In this document: piece by piece, positions 45,601-64,000 of the stretch
How the letters are laid out: each line of letters begins with the position of its first letter
Position numbering within the stretch: the first letter of the stretch is position 1
Origin: Agromyces sp. 3263
GTDB lineage: Bacteria > Actinomycetota > Actinomycetes > Actinomycetales > Microbacteriaceae
Length of the DNA stretch: 64,000 nucleotides
Assembly: GCF_031456545.1 (NCBI RefSeq)
Contig: NZ_JAVDUV010000001.1
Location: forward strand, 2,232,001-2,296,000
Direction of reading: 5' to 3'
The notes under the pieces: generated by a model
Databases searched by the model: none
What the model was told of the DNA's origin: nothing
What the model saw: only the letters and a program-made list of their open reading frames with translations
Program-made: the position numbers and the translations under genes

Positions 45601-45915
45601 CCCGGCATATCCGCCGTCGCGGACTCCTAGATGTGCGTCGACGCCCCTGTCTGGAGCGGTCGGAGCAGGTCCGTCACCGAAGAGGGAGAGCGCGTCGGTC
45701 ACTCGATTGTCTTCGTTCGGGAGCCCAATCAACGAAGCACCCCCGAACGTGGGGCGCGCATACCCGCCACCCTTCCCGCCCTTGTCTGTGGACTCTGAAA
45801 CAATGCTGAATACGCTCTCCGACCGACTTGGCGAGTGACTCGTGCCGAGGATCCGAATGAATGTTGCTGTTGCGCTGCCGCTGGTCGGTGTGCCGTGCGC
45901 CTTGGAGTCGACTCG
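45601..45915. other. Leader region upstream of pglW
   Basis: This 315-bp stretch holds no gene I can support. It presumably contains the BREX promoter, but no convincing -35/-10 pair or palindrome stands out. A GTG at 45835 is in frame with pglW and would add a Cys-rich, non-conserved 27-residue extension. Confidence 0.5.
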
Positions 45916-48900
45916 ATGAAGGCAGACTCCCCGAAATGGATCGTCATGGGTCCGGCTGCGTCGCCGGCTGAACAGGCTGCCCTCAACAAGCTGCGCGACC
46001 TGCTGCCCGACGACGGCATCACCACGGGGTGGGTGAACGTCACGTTCGTCGACAACCAGGGCGGCTTCAACGAGGTCGACGTGCTGTTGCTGACGAAGAA
46101 CGGCCTGTTCGTCGTGGAGCTCAAGGGCTGGCATGGCACGGTGCTGGTCAAGCCGAACCGTTGGTTCCAGAACGGTAAGGACATGGGCAACCCGCCCGTC
46201 GCGAACAACAACAAGGCCAAGCGACTGTCGGGGCTGCTGCAGGGCGTGACGATCAAGCACGCTGCCGGGTTCAAGCTGCCGTTCGTGCGATCGGTCATGG
46301 TGCTGCACGGCGCGAATTCCAACGTCGTGGTGCAGGGCAAGATCGAAGCGCTGACCACACTCGACGGCTACAGTGTGAGCCTCAAGGGCGACGGGGTGTC
46401 CTTCTCGAAGTTCCTGGCGACGCCGGCGACGCACGCTGACGATCTGGTCAGCGAGGCGAAGGCAAAGCAGATCCGAGCCGTGATCGCCGCCGCCGATCTG
46501 AAGCCGACTCCGAAGACTCGTAAGGTTGGTGACTACGACCTGGCCGACGCTGACCCGCTGGGGGAGGACGAGGAGTGGACGGACCTCCTCGCGACGCACC
46601 CGATCACGAAGGATCGCCGTCGCATCCGCGTGTTCAAGGTGCCCCGCGGCGCGTCGAAGGAGATGGCGTCCGACATCCAGCGTCACGCGCTCCGTGAGTA
46701 CCGACTGACGAACGGCATCTCACACCCTGGTATCACCCGTCCGCTCGAATACGTGGATTCCGAGGTCGGCCCGGCGCTCGTTTTCGCATACGACGAGCGA
46801 GAGCAGCCGCTCACCGACTACCTCACCGAGCACGCCGCAACGCTTTCGCTCGACGAACGGGTGGCGCTGATCCGCAAGATCGGTGAAGTCATCAAGGCGG
46901 CGCATTCGCGGCGGGTGATGCACCGCGCGCTCTCTCCACTGCGCGTTACCGTGCGCGCGAGCAAGAAGAAGGGCGCGACGGTCGCGGTTCGCGACTGGTT
47001 CGCCGGTCAGCGCACGAGCGAGGGTTCGACGCTGTCGCGCACGTTGCTTGGAACAAACGACATCCCCGAGGCGATCGACGAAGCGCAGTGGGGATATCTC
47101 GCGCCCGAGGTGGTGCAGTATCTCGGCGAACCATCGCCGATCGCGCTCGATGTCTACGGTCTCGGCGCGCTGGCATACCGCATCCTGACGGATCGCGACC
47201 CTGCTGAGAACGGCAAGGACTTACACGAGCTGTACCAGTCGGCATCGTCGCTTGATCCGATCGCGGTGCAGCCGGATCTTCCCGAGGTGTTCGCGAAGGT
47301 CGTGCGCGAGTCGACGGCGTTCGATGAGGCTCATCGCCCGACCGATGTCGGCGCCTTGCTCGCGCTGTTCGAGGATGCGTTCCGCGACTACGCAGGTTGG
47401 GCTGAGCCGGTCGCCGTCGATATCGACCCGTTGGATGCTTCGCCGGGTGAGATCGTTGGCGAGCGCTTCGAGATCAAGGCGCGGCGCGGTTCGGGCACGA
47501 CGGGTGTTGCCCTGCTCGTGGACGACTACGACTCGGGTCGCGAAAGCGTGATTCTGAAGCTCGCACGAGATGAGGATGCCGCGGCGCGACTCGCGGTTGA
47601 GGCCGAGGTCCTTCGTGGCCTCGATCATCCCCGCGTCGTGAGACTCCTCGATGGCCCGCTCGAGGTGGGTGGCCGGGCGGGGCTCCTCTTGAGCGATGCG
47701 GGCGCGGAGACGCTCGCCACGCGGCTGCAGACTGAGGGTCGCTCGACGCTCGAGCAGCTTGAGAACTACGGGCGCGACCTCCTCGAAGCGGTGCGGTACC
47801 TCGACTCGAGGGGCATCTTCCACCGCGACATCAAGCCCGCGAACCTGGCGATCGCGCCTGACCCGGGCACCCGTAAGCCGCGACTGACGCTGTTCGATCT
47901 CTCGCTCGCTCGCGAGCCGCTCACGCACACGAAGTCGGGTTCCCGCCCGTATCTCGACCCGTATCTCGATCAGCCGGGGCGGCGCGAGTTCGACCGGGCG
48001 GCGGAGCTCTTCTCGGTGGCGGCGACCTTGTTCGAGATGTCGGCCGGGGTGCCGCCGTTCTGGCCTGGCGGCAACGCACCAGAGCGTCCCGACGAGGCGG
48101 CGGTGGTGCAGGCGAGCCAGTTCGAGGAGTCGGTGGCGTCGGCACTCACGGAGTTCTTCACCCGGGCGCTCGCTCCGGTCGCGCGTGACCGATTCGAGAC
48201 CCTCGAGACCTTCGCGGCCGCTTGGCAGGGCGTCTTTACGCCCCTTGATCTGGTGGTCCAAGATGACTCGGCGACCGAGCAACTCGACGCCCTGGCCGCA
48301 TCGGCGACGCTCGACACTCCGCTCTCCGATTCTGGGTTGAGCGCTCGCGCCCGCTCGGGCCTCACCCGCCTCAGAGTGTCGACGGTCGGAGAACTCCTTG
48401 GCGTACCGCCGATGCAGATCAACCAGATTCGTGGCCTCGGTGAGTTGCATCGCAAAGAGGTACAGCGTCGCGTCCGCGAGTGGCGGACGCGACTGGCTGC
48501 GGGATCGAGTCCCGCAGCCACCGAGACGCCGGCCGGTCGGCAGTCGATCGAGCAGTTCCGGTCGAAGCTCATTCCGCAGCGCCGTACGGCTGAGAACTCC
48601 AAACAGATCGAAGTGCTTCGCCTCCTGCTCGGCGAAGACGAGACGCCGGGCGGCGTGGCTTGGCCGACGCTGACGTCGATCGCTGATCGCCTCGGCCTGC
48701 AAGTGGCGGCGGTGTCGCGTCTCGTGACCGAGGCGGTGCGTCGTTGGCGTAAGGACAGCAAGCTCCTGCAGATCGCGGTCAACGACGTCGTGCGTATCGT
48801 CGCCGACGCCGGGCTCGTGGCGACGCTCGATGAGGTGGCCGACCAGTTGCTGATGGACTACGGCTCGTCGAAGGTCGGCGATGAGCGTCGCCGGCACGCA

Positions 48901-50052
48901 CGTGGGCTTGTGCGGGCCGTCATCGAGCTGGATGCCGCCGCGGAGACCCCGCGGCTCGACAAGCGTCGCCCGCGTGATGACCAGGCTCCCGTGTTGCTCG
49001 CCATTGTCGGTGACGCTGACCGGCCGTCGTCGGAGCAGTTGCTTGCGATGGGGCGGCAGCTCGGCGATGAGGTCGACAAGCTCCTGCGTACCCAGGATGT
49101 GGCCCCTGCCGCAGCCGTGCGTGACCGACTTCGACGACTCGTTCCCGATCAGGTGTCGCTGTCGGATGCCCGACTGCTCGAGCTCGCCGTTGCGGCGTCG
49201 ACGACGGGTGCGAAGTCGAGTCTCGACGAGGTGTATTCGGTGGATCTCACGCCCGCCCGCGCGATCGAGGTGACACTCGCCGGGGTCGCCGTACGTGAGC
49301 TTTCCATCGACAGCATCGAGCGCCGTGTGCGCGGACGGTTCAGGCGTATCGCGGCGATCCCGTCCCGGCCTGCACTCGACGAGATCATTCAGCGGACGCA
49401 TCCGCACCTGGAGTGGAACTCCGGGCGCTACGCGGTGCGCGAGGGGTCGACGTTCGGCGCCTCGACGCGATCGGTGACGACGTTGCAGGGCTCCCTCCCG
49501 AACGACCAGTTGGCGCGCGCCCTCGCCGGGTCGGTGCAGGAGCGCAGTGCCCTAGCGCTCACGACGGCGTGGTCGCATTACGACGCGGCCGCGGCGACGC
49601 TCAGCGCCCGATTCGGCCTCGAGGTCGTCGACCTGGCCGCGCTCGTGGTTGAACGACTGCATGAGGCCGCGGCGCAGCTCGGTGCCGACTGGGCGGTCGT
49701 GGTCGGTGCGGACGCACCGTCGGCGGGGGCTGGCGACCGACGCAACCTGCAGGAGCTCGCGAAGCGGGCGGTCACCGAGGCGTGGGCCGGACTCGAGGCT
49801 CGCACAGAACCGTTGCTCTTCACCGACCCGGCGGTGCTCGCTCACCTTGGGCTCGTCGACCTCATCGGGCGCGCGATGGACCTGACGACCGCCCGTGCCG
49901 GCGCACGCTGGTTCCTCCTTCCGCAACGCTCGGCCGCCGCAGTGCCCGACCTCGACGGGGTGCCGATGCCGTTCGGTGCCGATCGTTGGATCGAACTCCC
50001 CACGAATCTGGCAGCGGTGCTGCCGACGCAACCCACGAAGGTGACGAAGTGA
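45916..50052 (+). CDS. pglW: PglW, NERD-domain tandem-kinase protein of BREX type 2
   Basis: A 1378-residue PglW. The NERD nuclease-related domain is at residues 12-110 (NEVDVLLLTKNGLFVVELKGWHG). A first kinase domain (about 215-480) is degenerate: HRA at 336-338 replaces HRD. A second domain (about 515-780) keeps Lys548, H636-R637-D638 with N643, and DLS (D661) for DFG, so it can be active. A helix-hairpin-like piece near 800-850 and a long C-terminal helical region follow. In Streptomyces Pgl, PglW is a Ser/Thr kinase needed for phage growth limitation. The ATG at 45916 is chosen for its GGAG site eight bases upstream. It overlaps pglX by 4 bp. Confidence 0.93.
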   Translation: MKADSPKWIVMGPAASPAEQAALNKLRDLLPDDGITTGWVNVTFVDNQGGFNEVDVLLLTKNGLFVVELKGWHGTVLVKPNRWFQNGKDMGNPPVANNNKAKRLSGLLQGVTIKHAAGFKLPFVRSVMVLHGANSNVVVQGKIEALTTLDGYSVSLKGDGVSFSKFLATPATHADDLVSEAKAKQIRAVIAAADLKPTPKTRKVGDYDLADADPLGEDEEWTDLLATHPITKDRRRIRVFKVPRGASKEMASDIQRHALREYRLTNGISHPGITRPLEYVDSEVGPALVFAYDEREQPLTDYLTEHAATLSLDERVALIRKIGEVIKAAHSRRVMHRALSPLRVTVRASKKKGATVAVRDWFAGQRTSEGSTLSRTLLGTNDIPEAIDEAQWGYLAPEVVQYLGEPSPIALDVYGLGALAYRILTDRDPAENGKDLHELYQSASSLDPIAVQPDLPEVFAKVVRESTAFDEAHRPTDVGALLALFEDAFRDYAGWAEPVAVDIDPLDASPGEIVGERFEIKARRGSGTTGVALLVDDYDSGRESVILKLARDEDAAARLAVEAEVLRGLDHPRVVRLLDGPLEVGGRAGLLLSDAGAETLATRLQTEGRSTLEQLENYGRDLLEAVRYLDSRGIFHRDIKPANLAIAPDPGTRKPRLTLFDLSLAREPLTHTKSGSRPYLDPYLDQPGRREFDRAAELFSVAATLFEMSAGVPPFWPGGNAPERPDEAAVVQASQFEESVASALTEFFTRALAPVARDRFETLETFAAAWQGVFTPLDLVVQDDSATEQLDALAASATLDTPLSDSGLSARARSGLTRLRVSTVGELLGVPPMQINQIRGLGELHRKEVQRRVREWRTRLAAGSSPAATETPAGRQSIEQFRSKLIPQRRTAENSKQIEVLRLLLGEDETPGGVAWPTLTSIADRLGLQVAAVSRLVTEAVRRWRKDSKLLQIAVNDVVRIVADAGLVATLDEVADQLLMDYGSSKVGDERRRHARGLVRAVIELDAAAETPRLDKRRPRDDQAPVLLAIVGDADRPSSEQLLAMGRQLGDEVDKLLRTQDVAPAAAVRDRLRRLVPDQVSLSDARLLELAVAASTTGAKSSLDEVYSVDLTPARAIEVTLAGVAVRELSIDSIERRVRGRFRRIAAIPSRPALDEIIQRTHPHLEWNSGRYAVREGSTFGASTRSVTTLQGSLPNDQLARALAGSVQERSALALTTAWSHYDAAAATLSARFGLEVVDLAALVVERLHEAAAQLGADWAVVVGADAPSAGAGDRRNLQELAKRAVTEAWAGLEARTEPLLFTDPAVLAHLGLVDLIGRAMDLTTARAGARWFLLPQRSAAAVPDLDGVPMPFGADRWIELPTNLAAVLPTQPTKVTK

Positions 50053-53000
50053 TCGACTCCGCCCAGCTCCTTGCCGACCTCAAGGGGCAGCTCAAGCTGC
50101 TCGAGGCCGACCTGACGGCGCGCGCCGATGATGTGACGAACGGGTGGGGTGCAGCACTCCGCACCGAGCACGCGAACGCGACGGCGCGCGAACGCACCGG
50201 CCTGCCGTGGATCGACTGGCGCAACGGCCAGGTCGCCCAGGCCGCGGTGGCTTGGATTCTCGCGACGGTGTTCATCCGCTTCGCCGAAGACAACGATCTG
50301 CTCGAGGGTGTGACGATCGACGGTGCACGCGCGGCACTGCCCTGGTTCGCCGGCCCCGGCGAAAGGCTGGAGCGGGCGGTCGAGCACCAGTCAGCGTTCT
50401 TCACGGCGAACCCGACGGCGGCTGGCCCGGACTGGCTCAAGCAGTCGTTCTCGGCGCTCGCGTCGCTGCCCGCGGGGCGCGCGCTCGTCGACCCCGCGCA
50501 CTCGCCGGTGTGGAGGGCGCCGATCTCGGGTGAAGCGGCCGACCGGCTGCTCGACTTTTGGCGCGTGACGGATTCGAGTGGTGCGCTTGTGCGCGACTTC
50601 ACCGACTCCGCGCTTGACACCCGGTTTCTCGGCGACCTCTACCAAGACCTCTCGGAGTTCGCGAAGAAGCAGTACGCCCTGCTGCAGACTCCGGTGTTCG
50701 TCGAGGAGTTCATCCTTGACCAGACGCTGACCCCGGCGATCGCCGAGTTTGGGCTCGAGAGCTTGAAGCTCATCGACCCGACGTGCGGCTCGGGGCACTT
50801 CTTGCTTGGTGCATTCGGCCGGCTCGTGGACGCGTGGACCGTCGAAGCACCGGCATTGGATGCTCGAGAGCGTGTTGCGAAGGCGCTCGCCTCTGTGCAC
50901 GGCGTCGACCTCAACCCGTTCGCGGTCGCGATCGCGCGCTTTCGGCTCACGGTCGCCGCGTTGCAAGCGGCGGGCGACCGAACGCTTGTCGCCGCACCTG
51001 ACTATCACCTCAAGCTCGCAATCGGTGACTCGCTGCTCGGCTCGCAGGCGTCGAGCGTGAGGCTCTTCGACGGTGAGAATGCTGATGCATTCGAGTACTC
51101 AGTCGAAGACCTCGCGGGATACCACGGCATCTTGCAGCAGAACCAGTACCACGTCGTCGTGGGCAACCCGCCCTACATTGCTGTATCCGACCGGGCCCAA
51201 AAGAAGACCTATGGGCAACTCTATTCCGCGTGCTCCGGTCATTGGGTTCTCTCGGTGCCCTTCATGCAGTTGTTCTTCGAACTCGCGGTACGAAGCGAAT
51301 CAACGGCCGGATCCGGTTATGTGGGACAGATTACGTCCGACTCCTTCTCGAAACGCGAATTCGGCGAAACTCTGGTTCGTGACTTCTTGTCAGGGAACGA
51401 CCTTGCCAGTCCGGTCGATCTAACATTGGTGGTCGATTCAGCGGGCGCATGGATCCCTGGCCACAACTTCGAAGGCACTCCAACCGTAATGCTTTTCGGC
51501 AGGAGGCGACGGCCGATTTCAACCACCGTGCGCGTGGTCGAAAGCATCCGAAGCGAAGCGGGACGACCGGAGGTCCCTTCCCGTAGCGCCACCTGGCAGG
51601 AGATAGTCGCTGCGGCCAACGGGGAACTTCTGTCTGGCGAGTTCGTGGCGGCCGAGGAATCCCCGCGGAGTCTGATTGCTGAGCACCCCTGGGTTCTCCG
51701 ACACGGAGCAAAGCCGCTTCTGGACCAAATGATGGCGTCATCTGGACGTCGCGTTCGTGGCATGGTTGCACGAGCTGGGTTCTTTGGTGTCGTCGGCGTG
51801 GATGACGCGTTCGTGGTTCCGCAGGGCTTTGCGAGCAGAGTTCATCTTGAGAGCAGTTTTCGAAGGCTCGCAATCGGCGACGGAGTTCGTGACTACGCCG
51901 TGGACGCGAATGAAGAAGTCTATTTTCCGTATTCCTCGACGCACGTGCTAGATGGCGAACCCGCACGATTCCTTTGGCCGCTCCGTTCCTCGTTAGGTGG
52001 AAGGGCCTCATATTCGGGCCTCTCGTACGCGGCGGAGGGGCGTCCATGGCACGGCTGGCACCAACTTCCTCTTGATTCTGGTGCTAGTGCCGTATCAATT
52101 GTTTGGGCGGAGGTAGCTACGCACAATCACTTTTCACTTGATTCCGGATCGTATGCGTTTAAGCAAACCGCGCCGATCTTGAAGTTTGCCGGCAGTGTCT
52201 CGGGCGAAGACATCGAGGGACTCCTCGGTGTCCTCAATTCTTCAGTTGGTTGCTTCTACCTACGCCAGGTTTGCTATCCAAAGGATCGTTCGCCTGAAGA
52301 ATGGCGCAGTCGGTTCGCATTCAACGCGACGAACGTCACCAGAATGCCGTTGCCAGACCAGCTCCCGAACGTCCGCGGCAAGGAGCTGGCGCTGCTATCT
52401 CGCCATGTCTCGAGCGCTGATGCTAGCGCCATGCTGAATGGCACTGGAACCCGGAGAGACTTTTCCGAACGCGCAGCGAAGATGGGCGCATCATGGAATC
52501 TGTTTCGAGGCCGCATGATCTTCGAGCAGGAAGAACTGGACTGGGATGTCTACCGCCTGTATGGACTGATCGACGATGACCTGACGTACTCAGGTGACTT
52601 TGACGGGCTCGATCTCGGACAGCGCGCCTTCGAAATTGCCCTTGCACGTCGCGTTGCCGCTGGTGATGAGCAGACCATGTGGTTCGCAAGGCATGGTTCG
52701 ACTCCAATCACCGAACTGCCGGTCGAATGGCCGACAGACTACCGCGCCGTCGTGGAGCGTCGGCTCGAAGCGCTTGCCGCGAATCCGGGGGTGCGCCTGC
52801 TTGAACGACCCGAGTTCAAGCGACGCTGGGCGACGCGGTCGTGGGACGATCAGCTCGCCGATGCGCTCCGCGACGCGATGCTCAACCACCTGGAGTCCGC
52901 CGCACACTGGACCGACATGAACGGCCGCCCGGTGACCCGCTCGGTCAACGAACTCGCTGATCTCTTGAAGTCCGACGCCTGGTTCGTGGAACTCGCGTCG

Positions 53001-53621
53001 CTTGCGTACGGCGCCGATGCCGATCTCCGCACGGTCATCGGCAAGCTGCTCGACGACGAGTCGGTGCCTTACTTGGCGGCGCTGCGCTACAAGCCGAGTG
53101 GGTTCGAGAAGTTCCGGGCGTGGGAACACACGTGGGAGTTACAGCGCGCTGAAGATCGGGGTGAGCGCGTCGAGGTGCCTGTGCCGTCGAAGTACGGGCA
53201 GGGTGACTTCCGCAAGTCGACGTACTGGAAGGCACGCGGCAAACTCGACGTGCCGAAAGAGCGCTTCATTTCCTACCCCGGCACGAACCGAGCCAACGAC
53301 CCGAGCCCGGTCTACGGCTGGGCCGGCTGGAATCACGCCGATCGGGCTCAGGCCCTTGCGCGCCTCCCGATGGAGCTGCTCGCGGCTGGCGCAACGTCCG
53401 ACGACCTCGCACCCCTGATCGGTGGGCTCATCGAACTGCAGCCGTGGCTCGATCAGTGGCACGCCGAGCTCGACCCTAACCTCGGCGTCAGCCCTGCGTT
53501 GGCGATCAGCGGCCTGACCGACCAGTTGCTCACCCAACTCCAGCTCGCGCGCGACAGTGTCACCGGGTGGCAACCGCCCGTCGCGACTCGTGGCCGCGCC
53601 GCCTCGAAAGGCACCAAATGA
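50049..53621 (+). CDS. pglX: PglX, adenine-specific DNA methyltransferase of BREX type 2
   Basis: A 1190-residue class I N6-adenine methyltransferase, close to the usual PglX length. The AdoMet-binding motif is DPTCGSGHF (D243 onward) and the catalytic motif is NPPY at 373-376. The target-recognition region probably lies at about 400-840, followed by a conserved C-terminal domain ([19 protein letters not shown]). In BREX it methylates one strand of a non-palindromic site to mark self. The GTG start overlaps pglW (GTGA), and the end overlaps pglY (ATGA). It is intact, with no G-tract of the kind that drives Pgl phase variation in Streptomyces. Confidence 0.95.
51200..52580 (+). other. Low-GC segment of pglX covering the probable target-recognition region
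   Basis: Inside pglX the GC content falls: the 60 bases at 52081-52140 contain 29 G/C, against 45 of 60 at 50161-50220. The drop starts shortly after the catalytic NPPY motif and ends before the conserved C-terminal part. This fits replacement of the specificity region by recombination. Confidence 0.65.
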
Positions 53622-56600
53622 CCGCCCTGCCGCTCACCACGCCGCTTCGTGACCTCATCACGATTCCGACGCGCATCGACTCCGCCGACTTCGTGCTCAA
53701 ACTGCACGACGGCGTCGCCGCTGCCGACCGCACTCTCGCCGACTATGTAGTCACCGACGCCATTGCCGAGGCGTTCGACGACGCACTCGGTCTCGTCGAG
53801 CATGCCGTGACGAACCGCACGTCGCGCGGCACGTACATCCACGGCTCGTTCGGTGCCGGTAAGTCGCACTTCATGGCCGTGCTGCACCTGCTCCTCACCC
53901 AGCACTTGCCCGCGCGCGAAGTGCCGGGCATCGGGCCGGTGGTGAGCAAGCACCTCGACGTGCTCGAAAAGCGCTTCTTCGCCGTCGACTACCACCTGAT
54001 CGGGGCGAAGAGCTTCGAGTCGGCGCTGTTCTCGGGCTACCTCGACACCGTCGCGGCGAAGCATCCGGAATCACCTCTGCCGTTCCTCCACGTCAGCGAC
54101 CAGCTTCTCGAAGACGCCAAGCAGCAGCGCGCAACGTTCGGCGACGACCAGTTCTTCGCGGCCGTCTCGACCGACAGCACCGGCGGCGGTTGGGGTGCGC
54201 TGGCGACCGGATGGGATGCGGCATCCTTCGACGCCGCGATTGCGCAGTCGACCGGTAACGCGGACCGCGACCGACTCGTGAGCGACCTCACCTCGACCCT
54301 GTTCAAGGGCTACACGAACGCCGGCGCCTGGGTCGACATCTCGACGGGTCTGAAGACCATCAGCAACCACGCTCAGAGCCTCGGCTATGACGGTGTCGTG
54401 CTGTTCCTCGACGAACTCGTGCTCTGGCTCGGCCAGCACATCTCCAACCAGGAGTTCGTGCAGGGCGAGATATCCAAGGTCGCCAAGCTTGTCGAGACCG
54501 GGACCGGTAGCCTTCCCGTGCCCTTCATCTCGTTCGTCGCCCGGCAGCGCGACCTCGCGCAGTTCCTCGGCAGCAGCACGCTCGGGGTCGAGCGTGAAGC
54601 GCAGCAGCAGACCTTCAACTACTGGGACGACCGGTTCGACAAGATCCAGCTGCGCGCGGCCGACCTGCCGAAGATCGTCAAGCAGCGCCTGCTGCAGCCA
54701 GTCGATCAGGACGCCGACGACACGCTCAAGTCGGCGCTCGCCCGCGTGCGCCACGACAACACCGCCTGGAACAACCTCCTCGCCGACGAGGCATCCTCGG
54801 GCGAAGCCGAGTTCTCGAGCGTGTATCCGTTCTCGCCCGCGCTCGTCGACGCGATGGTCGCCCTCTCAAATCTCATGCAGCGGGAGCGCACCGCGCTGAA
54901 GCTCATGGGTGAGCTGCTCGTCGACGGTCGCGACGAGCTCACTGCCGGCGACGTCATCCCGGTTGGCGACCTGTACGAGCCGGTCGCGCTCGGCACGCTC
55001 AAGCCGCTGGACGACACGATGCAGCAGCACTTCGCGATCTCGGCGACGTTCTACGTCGAGAAGCTTCGTCCATACCTGCTCAATAAGCATGCGCTCAGCG
55101 AGGAAGCCGCCGCGGGGCTGCCGCGAATCCACCCGTTCCGCAACGAAGACCGTCTCGCCAAGACGCTGCTCGTCGCGGCGCTCGCCCCCGGCGCAGCTTC
55201 GTTGAAGAACCTCACCGCCTCGAAGCTGCACTCGCTCAACTTCGGCTCGGTCACCGCGTTCGTGCCTGGCGCGGAGACTGCGCAGACGCTCGGGCTCGTG
55301 CGCAAATGGGCTGAAGAGTTCGGCGAGATCCACGTTGGTGAAGGTGTCGACCCCGTCATCTCAGTGCAGCTCTCGGGTGTCGACTACGACTCGATCCTCG
55401 ACCGCGTGCGCGGCGAAGACAGCCAGCCCGCGCGCCGCGCACTCGTACGCAAGCTTGTGCTCGAGGGTCTCGGACTCGGTGCCACGGTCGGGATGCTCGG
55501 CCAAGGCACCCCCTTCCCGCACGTGTGGCGCGGGCAGAAGCGCACCGCGTCGATCTGGTTCGGCAACATCCACAGCGGCAGCAACGACTTCAAGGACTAC
55601 GACTTCGAGACCGCCGAGGGCGAGTGGAAGGTCTTCATCGACTTCCCCTACGCAGCCGACGGGCAAACCGGTCCGCGCGACGACCTTGCGCGGATCACCG
55701 AGCTTCGCGAGAAGGGCATCGTCGCCGACACCATCGCGTGGCTGCCGAACTTCCTGACGGCGCCGCGGCAGAGCGACCTCGGGCGACTCGTCGTGCTCGA
55801 GTATCTGCTCACCGAGAACCGCTTCGATCAGTACGCCGATCACCTGCCCGTGAGCGACCGTCCCGCCGCAAGGCAGGCGCTCGAGAACAACCGCAGCAAC
55901 CTGCGCGAATCGTTCGGTCGCGCACTGCTCAGGGCGTACGGAGTCTCTGCGCCCGACGCCGCCGACGTCGACGAGCAGCTCCTGCCGAGCGAGACGTTCA
56001 CCTCACTCGTGCACGGGCTCACCCTACAACCGCCGGTCACCGGCACGCTCGCGGGCGGCCTCACCGGTGTCCTCGATCAGGCGTGGAAGAACGCGTACCC
56101 GAACCACCCCGATCTTGGCACTGTCGAGGTCAAGCGCCGGGAGCTCGACGAGACGCTGGCGCTGCTCGCCGAGACGGCCGAGCATTCTGGACGTCTGGAG
56201 TCGCTGAACCCGACCCAGAAACGAGTCGCTTCTGCCGTCGCCGTGCCGTTGAAGTTCGGCGTGCGCAACGAGAACATCTTCACCGCCCAGCTCGCTCAGT
56301 TCGGATGGCGCGACGATTTCACGCGCTGGGAGGCCGAACTCGGCGCTGCACTTACGGCAGCCGCCCTACGCGCGCGGCTCGAGCCCTGGGGCATGTCGCG
56401 CGATCTCGAAGACACGGTGCTGCTCGGCTGGTCGATCGTCGCCGACCGCGAATGGGTGCGCGGGGCCGCCGCCGTCGACCGACCAGCAGTCGGTTCGGTC
56501 ACGGATGACCTCGTGCTCCGAGCCGCGAATCTGCCCGATGAAGATTCGTGGACGCGGGCGAATTCGGTCGTTGCGCCGCTATTCGGTATCAGGGCGGAGA

Positions 56601-57289
56601 CGTACCGCAACTCAGGGGCGGTGCGGCGGCTCGGTGCGGCGATCGTCGACGCGGCGAAGTCGAAGAGTTCCGCAGCTTCCGAGCTCGTCTCGCAGCTCGA
56701 GGCGCACGCCGGGCAACTTGGCATCGACACGACGGCGGTTACCGGGCGGCTCGCGACCGCACGTAACGCGTCGGAGCTGCTCGGGTTGCTCGCGAAGGAG
56801 AACGAACCGAGGCTTGCGATCATCCGGCTCGCCGACACGACGCTCGTCGACTCGGCAGACGTGGTCGGCAAGTCGATCGCGAACGCAGATGCCGTCTCTC
56901 GGGCGCTCGAGGGAGCGGGCTGGGACTTCATCGCGAAGGCGGCGACGCTTGGTCGCGCAGAGGTCGACGACGCCATCGCGACACTTCAGCACGCCGCCGC
57001 TTCCAACGAGGCCATCGCACAGCTCGTTCCTCGACTGACCGAGGCCGCGCGCGTCGCGCGTGATGCGGTCATCAATGTGCCTGGGCCGACCCCGCCGAAT
57101 CCTCATGCGCCGACGCCGCCCGCGCCGATGCCGCCTGGCCCTGCTCGTCCTGACGGGCCGACGAGCGGGTCAACGTCAGCGGCTCCTGGCGAACTCGACT
57201 CGACGATCTCGAGTCTGCAGAAGGCGCTCGAGGCAGCACTCGGTGCGAATCCGAACAAGCACGTGCGCATCGACTGGTGGGTTGAGTGA
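53618..57289 (+). CDS. pglY: PglY, BREX ATPase (BrxC/PglY family)
   Basis: A 1223-residue P-loop ATPase. Walker A is GSFGAGKS (residues 76-83) and Walker B is VVLFLDEL (D265-E266). The first 450 residues form the ATPase core; the rest is helical, with a WFGNIHSGSNDFKDYDFE stretch near 650 and a Pro-rich linker (PGPTPPNPHAPTPP) near 1150 before the last helix. PglY/BrxC is the conserved ATPase of the BREX defence complex. Start and stop overlap pglX and pglZ, so stoichiometry is probably set by translational coupling. Slightly shorter than Streptomyces PglY. Confidence 0.94.
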   Translation: MTALPLTTPLRDLITIPTRIDSADFVLKLHDGVAAADRTLADYVVTDAIAEAFDDALGLVEHAVTNRTSRGTYIHGSFGAGKSHFMAVLHLLLTQHLPAREVPGIGPVVSKHLDVLEKRFFAVDYHLIGAKSFESALFSGYLDTVAAKHPESPLPFLHVSDQLLEDAKQQRATFGDDQFFAAVSTDSTGGGWGALATGWDAASFDAAIAQSTGNADRDRLVSDLTSTLFKGYTNAGAWVDISTGLKTISNHAQSLGYDGVVLFLDELVLWLGQHISNQEFVQGEISKVAKLVETGTGSLPVPFISFVARQRDLAQFLGSSTLGVEREAQQQTFNYWDDRFDKIQLRAADLPKIVKQRLLQPVDQDADDTLKSALARVRHDNTAWNNLLADEASSGEAEFSSVYPFSPALVDAMVALSNLMQRERTALKLMGELLVDGRDELTAGDVIPVGDLYEPVALGTLKPLDDTMQQHFAISATFYVEKLRPYLLNKHALSEEAAAGLPRIHPFRNEDRLAKTLLVAALAPGAASLKNLTASKLHSLNFGSVTAFVPGAETAQTLGLVRKWAEEFGEIHVGEGVDPVISVQLSGVDYDSILDRVRGEDSQPARRALVRKLVLEGLGLGATVGMLGQGTPFPHVWRGQKRTASIWFGNIHSGSNDFKDYDFETAEGEWKVFIDFPYAADGQTGPRDDLARITELREKGIVADTIAWLPNFLTAPRQSDLGRLVVLEYLLTENRFDQYADHLPVSDRPAARQALENNRSNLRESFGRALLRAYGVSAPDAADVDEQLLPSETFTSLVHGLTLQPPVTGTLAGGLTGVLDQAWKNAYPNHPDLGTVEVKRRELDETLALLAETAEHSGRLESLNPTQKRVASAVAVPLKFGVRNENIFTAQLAQFGWRDDFTRWEAELGAALTAAALRARLEPWGMSRDLEDTVLLGWSIVADREWVRGAAAVDRPAVGSVTDDLVLRAANLPDEDSWTRANSVVAPLFGIRAETYRNSGAVRRLGAAIVDAAKSKSSAASELVSQLEAHAGQLGIDTTAVTGRLATARNASELLGLLAKENEPRLAIIRLADTTLVDSADVVGKSIANADAVSRALEGAGWDFIAKAATLGRAEVDDAIATLQHAAASNEAIAQLVPRLTEAARVARDAVINVPGPTPPNPHAPTPPAPMPPGPARPDGPTSGSTSAAPGELDSTISSLQKALEAALGANPNKHVRIDWWVE

Positions 57290-59952
57290 CCTTGGCCGGC
57301 GAAGCATCCTGGGCACCGGTGCTCGATGAGGCGACCCTGCGGGGCCGGCTTCGGCAGTGGCGCGACGACGGCAAACGACGAGCCAACATGCTGCTGCTTC
57401 GCGCCAACCCGACGTGGAGCGGGCCCTCGTCGCTGACCGTCGGTGACGAGCACGTGCACGTCATCAACGGCATCTCACAGCTCGCCGTGCTCGACGCCGT
57501 ACACCAGTACTCTGGCGAGCCGATCGTCGTACTCACCCACCTCGACGACCAGCAGCTCGGCAGCGCCGTGCGGCTGCGAGCGGAGCGGTACGCCGTGCAG
57601 TCTGTCGACGCCTGGGAACTCGTGCCCGGGTTGTTCAAGGTCAGCGACCCCGTCGTCGACCGCAGCGTCCGGGAACTCGGCAGTTGGCTACCGCCGTTCC
57701 TGCTGACCCGCCAGCGTTCGGCGGGGTGGCCCATCGCGCGCGGGGGCACGCTCAGCGGCGACCACGTCATACGGGCGATCCTTGCCGATCTCATCGGTGT
57801 CGACAGCGCCGACGAGGTCGACCTACTCGCCGTGCTCGAACACATCGACGAACCTCAAACCGTTGCGCGCTTATACGACTACAAGGCCGACGAACTCGCC
57901 GGCGTGCTTGCCGCCACTAAACGACACGTGGGCGGCAGCGCCGCCCTCGCAGTGGAGTCGAAGGCGCGATCGAAGTCGTTCTCGACGCTCGCCGTGGCGC
58001 TCGTGGCCGACATGCTGTGGAACGGTCAGGCCGACGCCACCGCACGTGTGCGCTTCGATGAACGCTTTCTCGGCGGTAAGGCTGCCGAGACCGACGTGCG
58101 ACTGCTCGGTGACGCTGCCCGGGCCATCATTCTGCGTCGCGAAGCAGCTGCAGACGTGCACCTCAATGATGTGCTTCGCCAGGCCGAGGCGATCTTCGCT
58201 GACCTCGATTGGACCGACGGCGCGTCCGACTCGTCGGTGCTGCCCGCGGGACTCGAACGTCGGTACGAGCAGCTCGCGGCGGCAATCGAAGCAGCGGCTG
58301 CTGACGCATCCGAAGGCCGCACAAGCGCAGTCGACGACGCGCTTGCCGAGGTGCGCGCGCACCTGCTCGCGACGCATGATGCTGGCGAGTTGCTTGGGGC
58401 CGAGATGGCGACCCGACTCACCCGTTGGCTCGCGTCCGAACCGTCAGTTCTCCCGTCATCCTTCGGGGAGGCAGCAACTACTTACCTGCACGACTCGGCC
58501 TGGGCCGATCGCGCCCTCAGCGTGATCTGGAACGGCTCGGCTCGCACCGCATTGACGAGCGCGTATCGGTCGCTCGCCGAGCGGGTTGGCGAACGGCGCG
58601 GCGCTGAGGACGCTGCCGCAGCAGCTGTGCTCACCGGAGACGTGCCAACCGACATCGCGCCGATCGAGTCGTTGCTGGCCAGGGTCGTCGAACCGCTTGC
58701 GCGCGAGCGCGTGCTGCTCATCGTGCTCGATGGAATGTCGGCAGCAGTCGCCGCTGAGCTCGCCGACGAGGTTGGACGACTCCGCTGGGTGGAAGTCCTG
58801 CCGAACGACCTCACCAAGCGTGAGGCAGCGCTTGCGACGCTCCCGAGCGTCACTCGCTACTCGCGCTCGTCGCTCTTCGCCGGCCGGCTCACCGACGGAA
58901 ACCAGAGCACGGAGAAGACTGCGTTCGCGAAACTCACCGGAGGGATGCTCTTCCACAAGGACGACCTGCGCTCGTCGGCGGGCGCACTGTTGCCAAGTGC
59001 CGTCGAGACGGCTGTCTCGACGGCGGGTCCCAAGGTCGTCGGCGTGGTGCTCAACACCATCGATGACGACCTCGCGAAAGCGGACCCCGACTCGACACGT
59101 TGGACGCTGAATCGTGTCGCGAACCTTGCACCCTTGCTCGCTGCGGCTGCCGCCGCTGGACGAACTGTCGTACTCACCTCCGACCACGGCCACGTCATCG
59201 AACGCGGCGGTGAGTACCGCGCGAACGACAGCGGTGGAGCACGCTGGCGCACGGCGACCGGCGCCCCGGCCGCCGACGAGGTACACGTGTCGGGAGCCAG
59301 AGTGCTTGCGCCCGGCGGCTCAGCAGTGCTCGCGCGAGCCGAAGGGCTCCGCTACACGTCCAAAGCCGCCGGATACCACGGCGGGGCGGCGCTTGCGGAA
59401 CTCACCGTGCCGATCGTGGTCTTCCGGCCCGCAGGTGCCGAAGCGCCGAAGGGATGGCACGATGCGCCGCCCCAGGCGCCCGACTGGTGGTACGAGCGGG
59501 TGCCGGCTGAGGCATCCGCAGATATTGCGGTGCCAGACGCCCCAGTCGCCAAGCCAACGAAACGGTCAGCAAAGCCTGCCGATGTCGTGCCGATGTTCGA
59601 GTTCGCCGTCGACGAGTCGAGCGACAAGCAACCCCTGGCATCCGATCTCCTGAGCGAGATGTTGCTCGCGTCAGAGCTGTACGTCGAGCAGCGCAAGCGG
59701 CTGGGCCGACACCCGCTCGATGATGCCGTGGTCGCGAGCACTGTCGACCTCATCGACGAACGTGACGGTCGTGTCCACCGAGACGTGCTCGCCGCGCGGC
59801 TTCAGCTCGCACCGGCTGCACTTGACCTCACGCTCACGGTGCTCCGGCGACTGCTCAACATCGACGGATACGACACCGTTACCACCGATGCCGACGAGGT
59901 CACGATCGTTCTCAACCGCGAGCTGCTGCGCGAACAGTTCAATCTGAAGTAG
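57286..59952 (+). CDS. pglZ: PglZ, alkaline-phosphatase-fold BREX protein
   Basis: An 888-residue PglZ. The alkaline-phosphatase-like domain is at about 470-760, with LIVLDGMSAAVAAEL (D482) and LTSDHGHVIERGG (D633, H634, H636) as metal-site motifs. An N-terminal helical region precedes it. The C-terminal 100 residues form a winged-helix-like tail (RKRLGRHPLDDAVV, ending LLREQFNLK). PglZ is the hallmark protein of BREX, and in some systems it binds BrxX/BrxC. The GTG start overlaps pglY by 4 bp. Its C-terminal tail is duplicated in the next gene. Confidence 0.95.
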   Translation: MTLAGEASWAPVLDEATLRGRLRQWRDDGKRRANMLLLRANPTWSGPSSLTVGDEHVHVINGISQLAVLDAVHQYSGEPIVVLTHLDDQQLGSAVRLRAERYAVQSVDAWELVPGLFKVSDPVVDRSVRELGSWLPPFLLTRQRSAGWPIARGGTLSGDHVIRAILADLIGVDSADEVDLLAVLEHIDEPQTVARLYDYKADELAGVLAATKRHVGGSAALAVESKARSKSFSTLAVALVADMLWNGQADATARVRFDERFLGGKAAETDVRLLGDAARAIILRREAAADVHLNDVLRQAEAIFADLDWTDGASDSSVLPAGLERRYEQLAAAIEAAAADASEGRTSAVDDALAEVRAHLLATHDAGELLGAEMATRLTRWLASEPSVLPSSFGEAATTYLHDSAWADRALSVIWNGSARTALTSAYRSLAERVGERRGAEDAAAAAVLTGDVPTDIAPIESLLARVVEPLARERVLLIVLDGMSAAVAAELADEVGRLRWVEVLPNDLTKREAALATLPSVTRYSRSSLFAGRLTDGNQSTEKTAFAKLTGGMLFHKDDLRSSAGALLPSAVETAVSTAGPKVVGVVLNTIDDDLAKADPDSTRWTLNRVANLAPLLAAAAAAGRTVVLTSDHGHVIERGGEYRANDSGGARWRTATGAPAADEVHVSGARVLAPGGSAVLARAEGLRYTSKAAGYHGGAALAELTVPIVVFRPAGAEAPKGWHDAPPQAPDWWYERVPAEASADIAVPDAPVAKPTKRSAKPADVVPMFEFAVDESSDKQPLASDLLSEMLLASELYVEQRKRLGRHPLDDAVVASTVDLIDERDGRVHRDVLAARLQLAPAALDLTLTVLRRLLNIDGYDTVTTDADEVTIVLNRELLREQFNLK

Positions 59953-59958
59953 GCGCCC

Positions 59959-61259
59959 GTGACGTGGATAGCGAACGGTCGGCGCCTGACTCCGAGCGCT
60001 GCACAGTCGAGGATGCTTGCGTACGCCGATGCGATGGCCGGCGAATGGTCCATGACCAACCCCTCTCCCGCATCACAAGCGCAGCTCAGGGCCGCCATCG
60101 ACGGGCTCCTCGAGCAGATCGATTTCGACGCCGACGATTGGTCGACCAGGCGTTCATGGGCGGCGAGAGCCAAGCGTGATATGCGCGATCACGTTCAGAC
60201 CTGGCTTTGGGGGCTGGCCGCGAACAGAATGCACAGCCGGTTGGCGGATCCCTCGTCCTGGTCTGCACCGACCAAACGGGACGACCCACGTTCGGGGGCA
60301 ACGGAGGTTGCCTCGGGTCCGCAACCCGGCCCGCAACCGTACGGGGTGTCCTTCCGCGGGTCGGCGGCGCTGGTTCGCGATTGGCTTCGACATCTCGGTG
60401 TGGCTGATACGCGCATCGAAACCGAAGCCAGCGCCAGCGACGGGTTCGTCGAGGTCATCTCGCGCTTCTACGTGGCGTGGGTGATCCACAGCGCGAGTCA
60501 TGTGGATGCGGTGACCGTGCGAGGTCTCAGGGATTCGGCCGCAGAACGAGGTCGAGTGCCGCTCCTGTTCACCAGTGCGAGGTTCACTGCCGAGAAGCCA
60601 TCGCGCTGGCGAATTCAAGCTACGTCGCCCTGCTTATCTTCGATCCCGAGGCTGGGGAACTGTTCGGCGAGAACGATGTCGGACGAACCTTCCGGCGGCA
60701 AGCGCTCGACCCACAACGGACGCTCGAGGCGCTCCGGAATTCGACCGCGATGGCGCGTCGTATCGAAGCGGACGTGTCGGAATTGCCGGCCGCCTGGGGA
60801 GCGCCGCAGCTCGACGATCGGACACCCCTATCCAGGACGGCAGTGCAGGTCGCACTCCCGGATCTGGACACCGCCGAAGACAACAGCCGCACAATCGAAC
60901 TCGATCTCTCTGACCCTGAGACCACGCCCCCACGAGTCATTGAGCCAGCGGTTCGTATCAGCACGTTGCTGATCGCCTCAGAGACCTACGCCTTGCAGAA
61001 GAAGCGACTTGTTCGTCGTGCCCTTGATGATTCGGTCGTCGCGCGGATCGTCGACGCTGCGGATGATCGAGACGGGAGAGTGCGCCGCGAAGTGCTCGCT
61101 GACATCCTTGGAGTGACGCTTGGAGGCGTGGACAATGTGCTCGCGGTCCTTCGTCGCACACTCAACGTCGATGGATTCGAGACGGTTTCGACTGACGCAG
61201 ATCAGGCGAGCATCGTGATCGATCGTGCGTTGCTGCGTGAGCAGTTCAGTCTGAGGTAG
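59959..61259 (+). pseudogene. BREX accessory: Mrr-like domain fused to a PglZ C-terminal domain, frameshifted
   Basis: The reading frame starts at a GTG at 59959, 6 bp after pglZ, and shifts near 60595, where one base appears to be missing. Joined, it gives about 430 residues. Residues 1-115 are unknown. Residues 125-240 are Mrr-like (YGVSFRGSAALVRDWLRHLG; LLFTSARFT joins AIALANSSYVALLIFD across the shift). The catalytic Asp is DGFVEV, but the QxK position reads WVIHS, so cleavage is doubtful. The last 100 residues repeat the PglZ tail (KKRLVRRALDDSVVA; LLREQFSLR), with more than half of positions identical by eye. It is followed by brxD after 10 bp. It may be inactive, mis-sequenced, or made as two products. 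Confidence 0.75.
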
Positions 61260-61269
61260 GAGCAGAGAT

Positions 61270-62610
61270 ATGCAGGTGAGCCCCCGACGTCGCCAGGAGA
61301 TCGTCGACTCATTGCGCCGCGGTACCGTTCCCCAGCGAGGTCTCGACGTGATGGCGGTCGGACTTGATCGCTTCGCGCCGACGATCAAGGCTGAGCTTGG
61401 CGTTGTCGCGAACGGTGGGGCCCAGTTTAAGGCAGTGCGCGGCGAGTACGGCTCAGGGAAGACGTTCTTCGCACGCTGGATGAGCGAGACCGCGAAGGCC
61501 GCGGACTTCGCGACCGCCGAGGTGCAGATCTCCGAGACGGAGACGCCGTTGCACAAGCTCGAGACCGTGTATCGGCGCATCGTCGAGAGCATCTCGACGT
61601 CGTCGGCGCAGCCGAGCGCATTCAAGGAGATCGTCGACAGTTGGTTCTTCAATCTCGAAGGCGACGTCGTCGATGGGGGAGTGGACCCGAACGACCGCCA
61701 AGCCATCGCGCGAGCGACCGACGAACTCATCGAGAAGCGGCTCGCCAACGTCAGCAGGACCGCGCCCGCGTTCGCGACGGCATTGCGCGGGTATCGTTCA
61801 GCGGTTGAACGAGGAGACTCCGCCGAGGCAGATGGCCTCATCGCCTGGCTGGGTGGACAACCGCACGTCGCCGCGAGCGTGCGACGCTACGCGGGCATCA
61901 AGGGCGAACTCGACCACTTCGGCGCGCTCGGCTTTCTACAGGGTTTGCTCGCCGTGCTCAAGGACGCCGGGTATGCCGGACTTATTGTCATTCTCGACGA
62001 GGTCGAGACACTGCAGCGGGTGCGGTCTGATGTGCGTGAGAAGTCACTCAACTCGTTGCGGCAGCTGCTCGACGAGGTTGATGCGGGCCGGTTCCCTGGC
62101 TTGTATCTCCTCATCACCGGCACGCCTGCCTTCTTCGATGGCCAGCAGGGAGTGCAGCGACTGGCTCCCCTCGCGCAACGCCTCGAGACTCGATTCGAGA
62201 CGAACCCGCGCTTCGATAACCCGCGCGCCCCGCAGCTCCGGCTCACGGGGTTCACGTACGAGTCACTGCACGAGCTCGGCGGACGCATCCGCGATATCTA
62301 CGCCGACGGTGCCGACAACGGATACCGAGTCGCCAGCGCCGTCGACGACAGGTTCATCGACTCCTACGCAGCCAAGATCGCCGGGCAGCTCGGTGGAAAG
62401 GTCGGCATCGCCCCGCGAGTGTTCCTTCGCCAGCTCATCGACGTGATGGACAAGGTCGACCTCTACGTCGACTACGACCCGAGGCGTGAAGCGCTCGGCG
62501 AGGCGGGTCCGCTCACGTCGCTCACTGAAGAGGAGCAGGCAGCCATCCGCCGCGGCGAGGTTCGTGTGCCGACTCCCGTAGGCGTCGACGATATCGACCT
62601 CGGCATCTGA
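61270..62610 (+). CDS. brxD: BrxD, P-loop ATPase of BREX type 2
   Basis: A 446-residue ATP-binding protein of the BrxD (DUF2791) family. Walker A is GEYGSGKT (58-65) and Walker B is LIVILDEVETL (D243-E244). It starts MQVSPRRRQEIVDSLRRGTV, as is usual for BrxD. AGGAGCAGAG precedes the ATG, and the stop overlaps brxHI (TGATG). The biochemical role of BrxD in BREX is not well defined; it is characteristic of type 2 systems with brxHI. Confidence 0.92.
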   Translation: MQVSPRRRQEIVDSLRRGTVPQRGLDVMAVGLDRFAPTIKAELGVVANGGAQFKAVRGEYGSGKTFFARWMSETAKAADFATAEVQISETETPLHKLETVYRRIVESISTSSAQPSAFKEIVDSWFFNLEGDVVDGGVDPNDRQAIARATDELIEKRLANVSRTAPAFATALRGYRSAVERGDSAEADGLIAWLGGQPHVAASVRRYAGIKGELDHFGALGFLQGLLAVLKDAGYAGLIVILDEVETLQRVRSDVREKSLNSLRQLLDEVDAGRFPGLYLLITGTPAFFDGQQGVQRLAPLAQRLETRFETNPRFDNPRAPQLRLTGFTYESLHELGGRIRDIYADGADNGYRVASAVDDRFIDSYAAKIAGQLGGKVGIAPRVFLRQLIDVMDKVDLYVDYDPRREALGEAGPLTSLTEEEQAAIRRGEVRVPTPVGVDDIDLGI

Positions 62611-64000
62611 TGGGCGCGGCCGGCCTGCACTCGGCGATCGAATATCACGTCGTCAACTCACTCGGCTGGCCGTCGCTGCGACCGCTGCAGGAGGCATCGG
62701 TCGCCCCGATTTGCAGCGGGGCCGACTGCCTGCTGGTTGCGCCCACCGCTGGAGGCAAGACGGAAGCGGCGGTCTTCCCGCTGCTCTCGAGCATGATGGA
62801 TGACTCGTGGCACGGCTTCACCGTCATATACGTGACCCCGCTCAAGGCGCTGCTCAACAACCTGCTGCCGCGCTTGGAGAAGTACACCGAGTGGGTCGGC
62901 CGCAGGGTGGCGCTTTGGCACGGCGATGTCGGCGATGGCGATCGCCGACGCATCCTCGCTGACCCGCCAGACATCCTGCTCACCACGCCGGAATCGCTCG
63001 AGGCGATGCTCGTCTCGCGGCGAGTCTTGCATCATCAGTTCTTCCGGAGCATCCGCGCGATCGTCGTCGACGAGGTGCATTCGTTCGCGGCATCCGATCG
63101 TGGCTGGCACCTGCTCGCGGTACTCGAGCGGCTGCAGCGCATCGCCGACCGGCCGATCCAGCGAATCGGGCTGTCGGCGACGCTCGGCAACCCGGAGGAC
63201 GTGCTGCACTGGCTGCAGGGCTCGAACCGGGCTCGCGGTGTGTTCGCAAAGGTCGTGCGCGACTCGAGCACGATTGCTGAGCCCGAGATCACGCTCGACT
63301 ACGTTGGCTCGCTCGAGAACGCCGCTGAGATCCTGTCGCGGCTGTTCGTGGGGGAGAAGCGGCTCGTCTTCTGCCAATCGCGGGCTCAGGCCGAGGAACT
63401 CGCGTTCGAACTGCGACAGCGGGGCGTGACCACGTATGTTTCCCACTCCTCGCTGTCGGTCGATGAGCGGCGCATCAGCGAGCGGGCGTTCGCAGAAGCG
63501 CGCGACTGCGTGATCGTCGCCACATCGACGCTCGAACTCGGCATAGACATCGGCGACCTCGACCGGATGATCCAGATCGATGCGCCGTTCTCGGTGTCGG
63601 CGTTTCTGCAGCGACTCGGTCGCACCGGGCGGCGGCCAGGGACATCGCGGAACGCGTTGTTCCTCGCGACCGAGCTCGATGCGTTCGCTCGAGCGGCGGG
63701 CCTCCTGTTGCTGTGGTCACGTGGCTTCGTCGAGCCGATCGTCGCCCCGCCGCATCCGCGACACATCGCTGCGCAGCAGCTGCTCGCGCTCGCGCTGCAG
63801 GAAGGTCGCATCCCGATCGCAGGCTGGGAAGACTGGTGGGCGGGTTCCGCGGTCATGGATGGCGCGACCGAGGTGCTTGACTACCTCGTGGGATCCGACT
63901 TTCTCGTCGCCGATGGCGACCTGCTGGTCATCGGACCTACGGCCGAGCGTGCATTCGGTCGTCGCAACTTCATGGACCTCCTGTCCTCGTTCATCGCAGA
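62610..64000 (+). CDS. brxHI: BrxHI, Lhr-like superfamily 2 helicase, truncated by the window edge
   Basis: The first 463 residues are present. The SF2 helicase motifs are all readable: motif I APTAGGKTE (K50), Ia TPLKALLNN, Ib TTPESLE, motif II DEVH (154-157), III LSATLG, IV LVFCQSRAQAEE, V STLELGIDIGDLD, and VI QRLGRTGRR. The layout is that of Lhr-like helicases, which BREX type 2 uses as BrxHI. It starts in the brxD stop. The winged-helix and C-terminal parts lie outside the window. Confidence 0.92.
   Translation, partial: MGAAGLHSAIEYHVVNSLGWPSLRPLQEASVAPICSGADCLLVAPTAGGKTEAAVFPLLSSMMDDSWHGFTVIYVTPLKALLNNLLPRLEKYTEWVGRRVALWHGDVGDGDRRRILADPPDILLTTPESLEAMLVSRRVLHHQFFRSIRAIVVDEVHSFAASDRGWHLLAVLERLQRIADRPIQRIGLSATLGNPEDVLHWLQGSNRARGVFAKVVRDSSTIAEPEITLDYVGSLENAAEILSRLFVGEKRLVFCQSRAQAEELAFELRQRGVTTYVSHSSLSVDERRISERAFAEARDCVIVATSTLELGIDIGDLDRMIQIDAPFSVSAFLQRLGRTGRRPGTSRNALFLATELDAFARAAGLLLLWSRGFVEPIVAPPHPRHIAAQQLLALALQEGRIPIAGWEDWWAGSAVMDGATEVLDYLVGSDFLVADGDLLVIGPTAERAFGRRNFMDLLSSFIA

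Follow-up and report, generated by a model that had tools for sequence, protein, structure and literature searches.

A BREX type 2 accessory gene of Agromyces that joins a catalytically degenerate Mrr-like domain to a PglZ-type tail, a candidate docking module for BrxD

Between pglZ and brxD in the BREX type 2 operon of Agromyces sp. 3263 lies a gene whose family encodes an Mrr-like nuclease domain, stripped of its catalytic residues, fused to a C-terminal tail homologous to that of PglZ. Both parts have confidently predicted folds, intact homologues conserve them, and the same tail is reused on other proteins in loci that carry brxD and brxHI. We give about an even chance to the reading that the intact gene encodes a BREX type 2 accessory adaptor, whose tail plugs into BrxD, or into BrxD together with BrxHI, while its non-cutting Mrr-like domain touches DNA.

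Results

The accessory gene lies within a BREX type 2 operon and is interrupted once

The window, by which we mean the whole 64,000-nucleotide stretch analyzed (contig NZ_JAVDUV010000001.1, positions 2,232,001 to 2,296,000), comes from a genome of three contigs and 4.07 Mb. On its forward strand pglW, pglX, pglY, pglZ, the accessory gene, brxD and brxHI follow one another in the order of BREX type 2 (Table 1), and the accessory gene is encoded within this operon, its start only a few bases 3' of pglZ. The NCBIfam model for PglY was matched below its curated cut-off, the corresponding PADLOC model strongly. The brxHI product is 63% identical to a protein that PADLOC calls BrxHI at locus L114, described below. 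Elsewhere in the neighborhood, an HNH_2 endonuclease gene (window 43821-44762, E 1.6e-11) lies about 1 kb upstream of pglW, and two consecutive GmrSD_N-domain genes stand behind brxHI, just past the window end (L143:6826-10868); this pair is likely a type IV restriction layer.

Table 1. Features of the BREX type 2 operon and its accessory gene, in window coordinates
Feature	Position	Strand	Basis or remark
pglW	45835..50052	+	BREX_PglW, 1095.7 bits
pglX	50067..53621	+	BREX_2_MTaseX, 1377.5 bits; start set by the match, frame open from 49782
pglY	53567..57289	+	BREXATPasePglY, E 4.9e-275, 915.9 bits (curated cut-off 1700); PADLOC BrxC-PglY, 1231 bits
pglZ	57286..59952	+	BREX_PglZ_2, E 7e-219
PglZ tail, part common to the accessory gene	59638..59949	+	Sequence comparison with the accessory tail
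Accessory gene, 5' half: helical N-terminus (residues 1-117) plus the greater part of the Mrr-like domain	59959..60597	+	Match to P0001
Mrr-like PD-(D/E)XK domain without catalytic residues	60310..60707	+	Frame break inside the domain
Degenerate catalytic stretch DGFVEVISRFYVAWVIHS	60439..60492	+	Read from the sequence; aligned homologues
Frame break relative to intact homologues	60588..60597	+	End and start of the two P0001 matches
Accessory gene, 3' half including stop codon	60588..61259	+	85% identity to P0001 residues 210-432
PglZ-type tail, winged helix-turn-helix	60942..61256	+	BLASTP, identity, model, structural matches
brxD ATPase, proposed docking partner	61270..62610	+	BREX_BrxD, E 1.1e-190
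brxHI helicase	62610..64000, continues past the window end	+	687-aa open frame in the genome

Two open reading frames, 59959-60972 and 60477-61259, are the two halves of this one gene. Residues 2-213 of an intact homologue, P0001 (432 aa), aligned with window 59962-60597 at 89% identity, and its residues 210-432 aligned with 60588-61256, both matches being free of stop codons; since they meet at 60588-60597, we place a single frame break about there. Because the frame breaks only this once, the window copy is probably a pseudogene or reflects a sequencing error and probably does not work. The original prediction had described a gene of two-part make-up between pglZ and brxD whose protein would need repair; the open reading frames, the profile matches and the P0001 alignment agree with it, and the break it implied is now mapped. 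Among the 4186 ORFs of the fetched loci, the N-terminus (residues 1-117) had no known relatives, its matches being copies of the window gene only.

The Mrr-like domain keeps its predicted fold and has lost its catalytic residues

The middle of the accessory gene did not reach Pfam Mrr_cat. The protein search matched P0007, an Mrr_cat-bearing protein of Microbacterium oryzae (38% identity, E 1.2e-9), and an Mrr profile built without the accessory family matched P0001 at 115.5 bits (E 4.7e-37 in a search of six sequences), the profile being a favorable choice in that its source loci had been retrieved with the accessory family itself. AlphaFold predicted a PD-(D/E)XK nuclease-like fold for the middle of the protein, with pLDDT mostly 92-97, from an alignment of 28 sequences assembled from partial relatives. 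At window 60478-60492, WVIHS stands where QxK is expected, the K being I in this copy, and in all five homologues the aligned catalytic positions are changed (E to A, D to E, Q to W, and K to V, T or I). By comparison, 34 other Mrr domains were aligned, and 23 of them retain E, D, K and either Q or S. The accessory family thus resembles Mrr-type restriction endonucleases (Pfam PF04471), such as P0007, in having a homologous domain with the PD-(D/E)XK fold, but the E, D, Q and K of the catalytic E...D...QxK pattern are all replaced and a PglZ tail is added. The loss of QxK had been noticed from the sequence at the outset; the alignment extends it to the other catalytic positions, and the nuclease-like fold on which that reading depended, together with a winged-helix tail, emerged from structure prediction.

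Small degenerate Mrr proteins of 133-164 aa (L018, L022-L030) were also present in genomes of the family, some of which gave several matches each. In a small tree these form the nearest branch to the accessory Mrr domain (support 0.869). They share with it the loss of K and, in nine of ten, the replacement of Q by W, but are small Mrr proteins without the tail fusion.

The C-terminal tail is homologous to that of PglZ

By BLASTP, 71 of 173 aligned residues are identical between the accessory protein and the local PglZ (E 3e-27). The tail proper is 53.8% identical to the local PglZ tail over about 104 residues, in keeping with the hand count of about 55 of 97 from which the last 100 residues had been taken for a copy of the PglZ C-terminus. 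The NCBIfam BREX_PglZ_2 (E 4.2e-18) and PADLOC PglZ (E 4.1e-19) profiles match only the 3' half, over its last three quarters. No DNA-level match between the accessory gene and pglZ was returned by blastn, as expected if the duplication is old. The PglZ core (PF08665), which Pfam finds in pglZ, gave no match in either gene half or in P0001-P0004.

The tail is predicted at pLDDT 94-97 over residues 331-430, and its structural matches are winged helices; these include DNA-binding regulators, and ScpB, a winged helix solved with a protein partner, scores equally. Several positions (P0001 numbering) are shared by PglZ tails and fused tails: R352 and N402 are kept in 16/16 and 10/10, Q428 and F429 in 16/16 and 9/10, Q346 in 15/16 and 10/10, and S340 in 12/16 and 10/10, respectively. 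The tails also conserve an LL-x-EQF motif at the C-terminal end. Type 2 PglZ is described as ending in a three-stranded winged helix-turn-helix (PMC12839542). The accessory protein is therefore like the PglZ of BREX type 2 (NCBIfam NF033446) in the sequence of its last 105 or so residues, in the conserved polar positions and in the winged-helix fold of its C-terminus, but it carries a dead Mrr domain and had no detectable PglZ core.

Intact homologues exist but are few

The search with the accessory protein, in which the 8000 best candidates were scored, gave seven matches among them: five homologues (P0001-P0005), the window's own 3' piece (P0006) and P0007, a plain Mrr protein. The homologues are 80-93% identical; P0003 and P0005 are shorter, P0003 lacking most of the tail, and P0004 is a protein of Agromyces laixinhei. 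P0001, P0002 and P0004 cross the break region in one frame. Identities of the Mrr-like domain, tail and linker are 78%, 87% and 69% between P0001 and P0004, and 92%, 91% and 76% between P0001 and P0002. In P0005 the linker is conserved like the domains (72 of 72), so that its pairing with P0001 shows no special constraint. In the six other BREX type 2 loci compared, pglZ and brxD have no gene between them, which is why we consider the accessory gene rare. In open-access full texts we found neither this fusion as a BREX component, in agreement with the first impression that it was undescribed, nor any description of a class of proteins joining a dead nuclease to a PglZ tail.

The tail occurs on unrelated proteins

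Genomes were searched with the accessory family as query (398 of the family and 60 of the genus) and with an alignment of the tail (396 of the order, 396 of the phylum and 394 of the class); the samples overlap. The best 4 or 12 candidates per genome were scored, the genus run excepted, and one collection scan yielded 16 loci. Loci from L047 onward, which include the best 30 matches of the class search, hold 66 distinct tail-bearing ORFs, 57 of them PglZ; the class-search matches beyond those fetched all have open frames of at least 927 aa. The nine remaining ORFs are the window gene, a remnant at L116, an ORF cut by a contig end at L133, and six others.

Tail bearers other than PglZ are diverse. 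P0008, of Agromyces sp. H66, is an SRA protein (SAD_SRA, E 1.7e-45) whose gene adjoins brxHI, and at L079 a gene behind brxHI encodes a protein of 353 aa that includes a membrane-like stretch. Kinase-like proteins carry the tail directly upstream of brxD at L114 and L115. A 710-aa protein of Cellulosimicrobium composti (P0022, L125) occupies the window gene's slot between pglZ and brxD, and one of 386 aa in Cellulomonas endophytica (L135) is encoded upstream of pglW. A protein search with the PglZ tail returned 13 matches, nine with a PglZ core, and added P0020, P0010, P0012 and the doubtful P0021. P0020 is a second SRA protein (SAD_SRA, E 1e-41), alike to P0008 over nearly its full length (37%); P0010, which lies on a 1259-base contig and is possibly incomplete, and P0012 share with L135 both the tail and a domain known from the N-terminus of HNH enzymes. 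The original prediction had tied the tail to PglZ and the accessory protein, which holds, and it is in fact a wider module on unrelated proteins. Tail identities and a tree suggest that this mobile module was captured several times, with low tree support for so short a domain.

Several candidates were set aside. Two short tail remnants, the L116 ORF (79 aa) and a G1309 fragment (93 aa), come from genomes that lack BrxD and were not taken as fusions, and the L133 ORF, ending at a contig edge, may be a PglZ. P0021 (NERD, kinase and partial tail) was left uncounted because only 40% of the tail query is covered; it could be a real fusion or the joint of a pglW-pglZ deletion. Residues 445-545 of P0022 were considered as another degenerate Mrr domain, and neither the Mrr profile nor hhalign gave anything above shuffled sequences; the P0022 model is poor around these residues, with block means of 35-73, and has a clear tail (611-710 at 92-97). 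SngA of the PADLOC SngABC system, whose SngB resembles BrxD, was not supported as a tail bearer: at the five loci tried, the tail profile gave E values of 0.038 or worse and hhalign a probability of 0.4-1.1%.

In two types the tail stands where relatives carry an HNH nuclease

The best plasmid relative of P0008 (L160) has an SRA domain at residues 130-273 and HNH_2 at 325-380. Among five plasmid proteins related to the P0012 domain, three are annotated as HNH endonucleases, and the one examined (L161) has the shared domain at 101-203 followed by HNH at 273-326. P0008, P0020, P0010, P0012 and L135 had no Pfam match to HNH and bear the PglZ tail at that end. In both types with a relative examined (SRA and HNH), an HNH nuclease thus stands where the tail proteins carry the tail. 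Together with the dead Mrr domain, these types make three restriction-type architectures that combine a PglZ tail with the lack of a working nuclease, and their families imply that all three may read DNA. P0008 and P0020 share the SRA domain of the SRA-HNH modification-dependent enzymes (TagI; PMC6212794, in the part available), an arrangement seen complete in L160, but have the PglZ tail in place of a match to HNH. Auxiliary nucleases, for example of the GmrSD type, adjoin BREX as extra layers (PMC12839542, excerpt), and the tail proteins resemble them as restriction-type genes in BREX loci; those, however, are nucleases, for which the excerpt mentions no PglZ tail, whereas the three architectures above have a dead nuclease or lack one.

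The tail keeps company with BrxD and BrxHI

Downstream of 47 of the 57 distinct PglZ tails lies brxD. For 45 of them it is within 150 bases; at L076 the distance is 796 bases and at L125, where P0022 fills the gap, 2189. Ten tails have no brxD in the stretch. One is that of the window, where the accessory gene comes before brxD. Another eight belong to genomes in which BrxD passes the cut-off, encoded 2-10 kb downstream in six and on another contig in two, and the last is in a fragmented MAG (G1080) that has a sub-cut-off BrxD match only. A sample of 80 genomes of the order took in every tail genome except G000, 11 in all, and roughly one in four of the rest. BrxD passed the cut-off in those 11 and in none of the 69 others. 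Weaker BrxD matches occur in three of the 69 tail-less genomes (G464, G572 and G660), that of G464 (E 4.5e-40) beside its SngA. Most of this co-occurrence arises because tail and BrxD both belong to BREX type 2.

More telling are two genomes, G1427 and G1329, which alone separate BrxD and BrxHI from PglZ. In each, the sole PglZ_2 match is a kinase-like tail protein, below the cut-off and directly before brxD-brxHI; PglX and PglY were looked for within the 19-20 kb fetched. Kinase-like tail protein, BrxD and BrxHI stand in a row at L114:7238-11930 and L115:6323-12122, and no PglZ proper was found in either genome. These loci are possibly a separate defense system. A PP2C phosphatase adjoins the row at L115 (PP2C_2, E 6.4e-30), and both loci have a further nearby ORF with coiled-coil-like matches.

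At L079, L122 and L135 the tail gene does not adjoin brxD. At L079:14018-15126 a toxin-antitoxin-like pair, one gene with a PIN domain and one with HTH_17, separates brxD from brxHI. Other cargo sits at the pglZ-brxD junction of L154, L155, L156, L158 and L159; an opposite-strand pair in this L154-L159 set is presumably DUF262 plus a partner, and L159 has an HTH-like and a metalloprotease-like gene.

Discussion

BrxD is described, in the portion of PMC12839542 drawn on here, as an ATPase without additional DNA-binding domains that may load BrxHI. In the adaptor that we propose, the C-terminal winged helix would be a duplicated PglZ tail that plugs into BrxD and thereby connects to the BrxHI helicase. 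The Mrr-like domain would have lost cutting and kept its fold, and because the fold is kept it probably still touches DNA. The tail would then be the link that recruits or triggers BrxD, with the dead Mrr domain as an extra DNA-sensing input, and the adaptor would either lead BrxD-BrxHI to invader DNA left unmarked by PglZ alone or restrain them. Docking, DNA reading and a benefit to defense are what the anatomy of the protein and its company lead us to infer. That one tail occurs on PglZ, on DNA-reader domains and on a kinase-like protein with BrxD-BrxHI is best explained by a link to BrxD. The suggestion that the accessory protein binds the same partner as PglZ gains from the unrelated tail proteins in BREX type 2 loci and from the kinase-tail/brxD/brxHI rows without PglZ, which would point to BrxD or BrxHI as that partner. 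Against the plug count the tail genes away from brxD (L079, L122, L135), the broken window copy and the rarity of the gene. Moreover, the same excerpt lists BrxD in 1153 of 1309 type 2 taxa, so that the tail may persist in some systems that lack BrxD.

A winged helix could also simply bind DNA, which weighs against the plug. The tail proteins would then be brought to the DNA of PglZ rather than to BrxD, as the DNA-binding regulators among the structural matches allow and as fits an excerpt that regards the accessory domains of PglZ as modules binding DNA or the invader (PMC12839542). However, ScpB, with its protein partner, matches equally well, the conserved LL-x-EQF end is rather explained by protein contact, and BrxD and BrxHI are constant company even where PglZ proper is missing; we think this reading improbable. 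No more favored is a regulator or decoy that competes with PglZ for one site and restrains the operon's effector. Such a protein would have no need to read DNA, and the likeness of its tail to that of PglZ, the loss of every catalytic residue and the position of its start just behind pglZ would all suit it, but the sensor-like domains of the SRA, HNH-type and kinase-like tail proteins would be superfluous for a plain competitor, and in two genomes no PglZ proper was found with which the kinase-like proteins would compete.

Least probable, at a small fraction of the chance we allow the adaptor, is that a PglZ tail was duplicated onto a neighboring gene by accident and that the product is decaying without a role. 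The broken frame, the seven matches among the 8000 best candidates scored and the linker of P0005, as conserved as its domains, are what decay might leave. Yet P0001, P0002 and P0004 are each in one frame and among them conserve the Mrr-like domain and tail above the linker, and similar fusions recur on several N-termini, with P0008 and P0020 alike over nearly their full length.

Beyond the adaptor itself, we hold somewhat short of an even chance a broader view, in which BrxD-BrxHI would be a universal BREX type 2 socket and the PglZ winged helix-turn-helix a plug put repeatedly on nuclease-dead or nuclease-less readers (Mrr, SRA and the N-terminal domain of HNH enzymes) and on kinase-like switches. 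Cutters would thereby become targeting subunits, and the kinase-tail-BrxD-BrxHI loci would be a separate system with its PglZ effector replaced. Target choice and the roles of BrxD and BrxHI are open questions in BREX type 2, for which a shared tail of 100 residues gives a concrete handle. If the tail binds BrxD, the order of events becomes testable, with a reader or PglZ recruiting BrxD and BrxD loading BrxHI; it would also show that BREX has restriction-type readers plugged into it minus their nuclease, and a search for the tail alone could then turn up further BrxD-BrxHI systems, for example of the kinase type.
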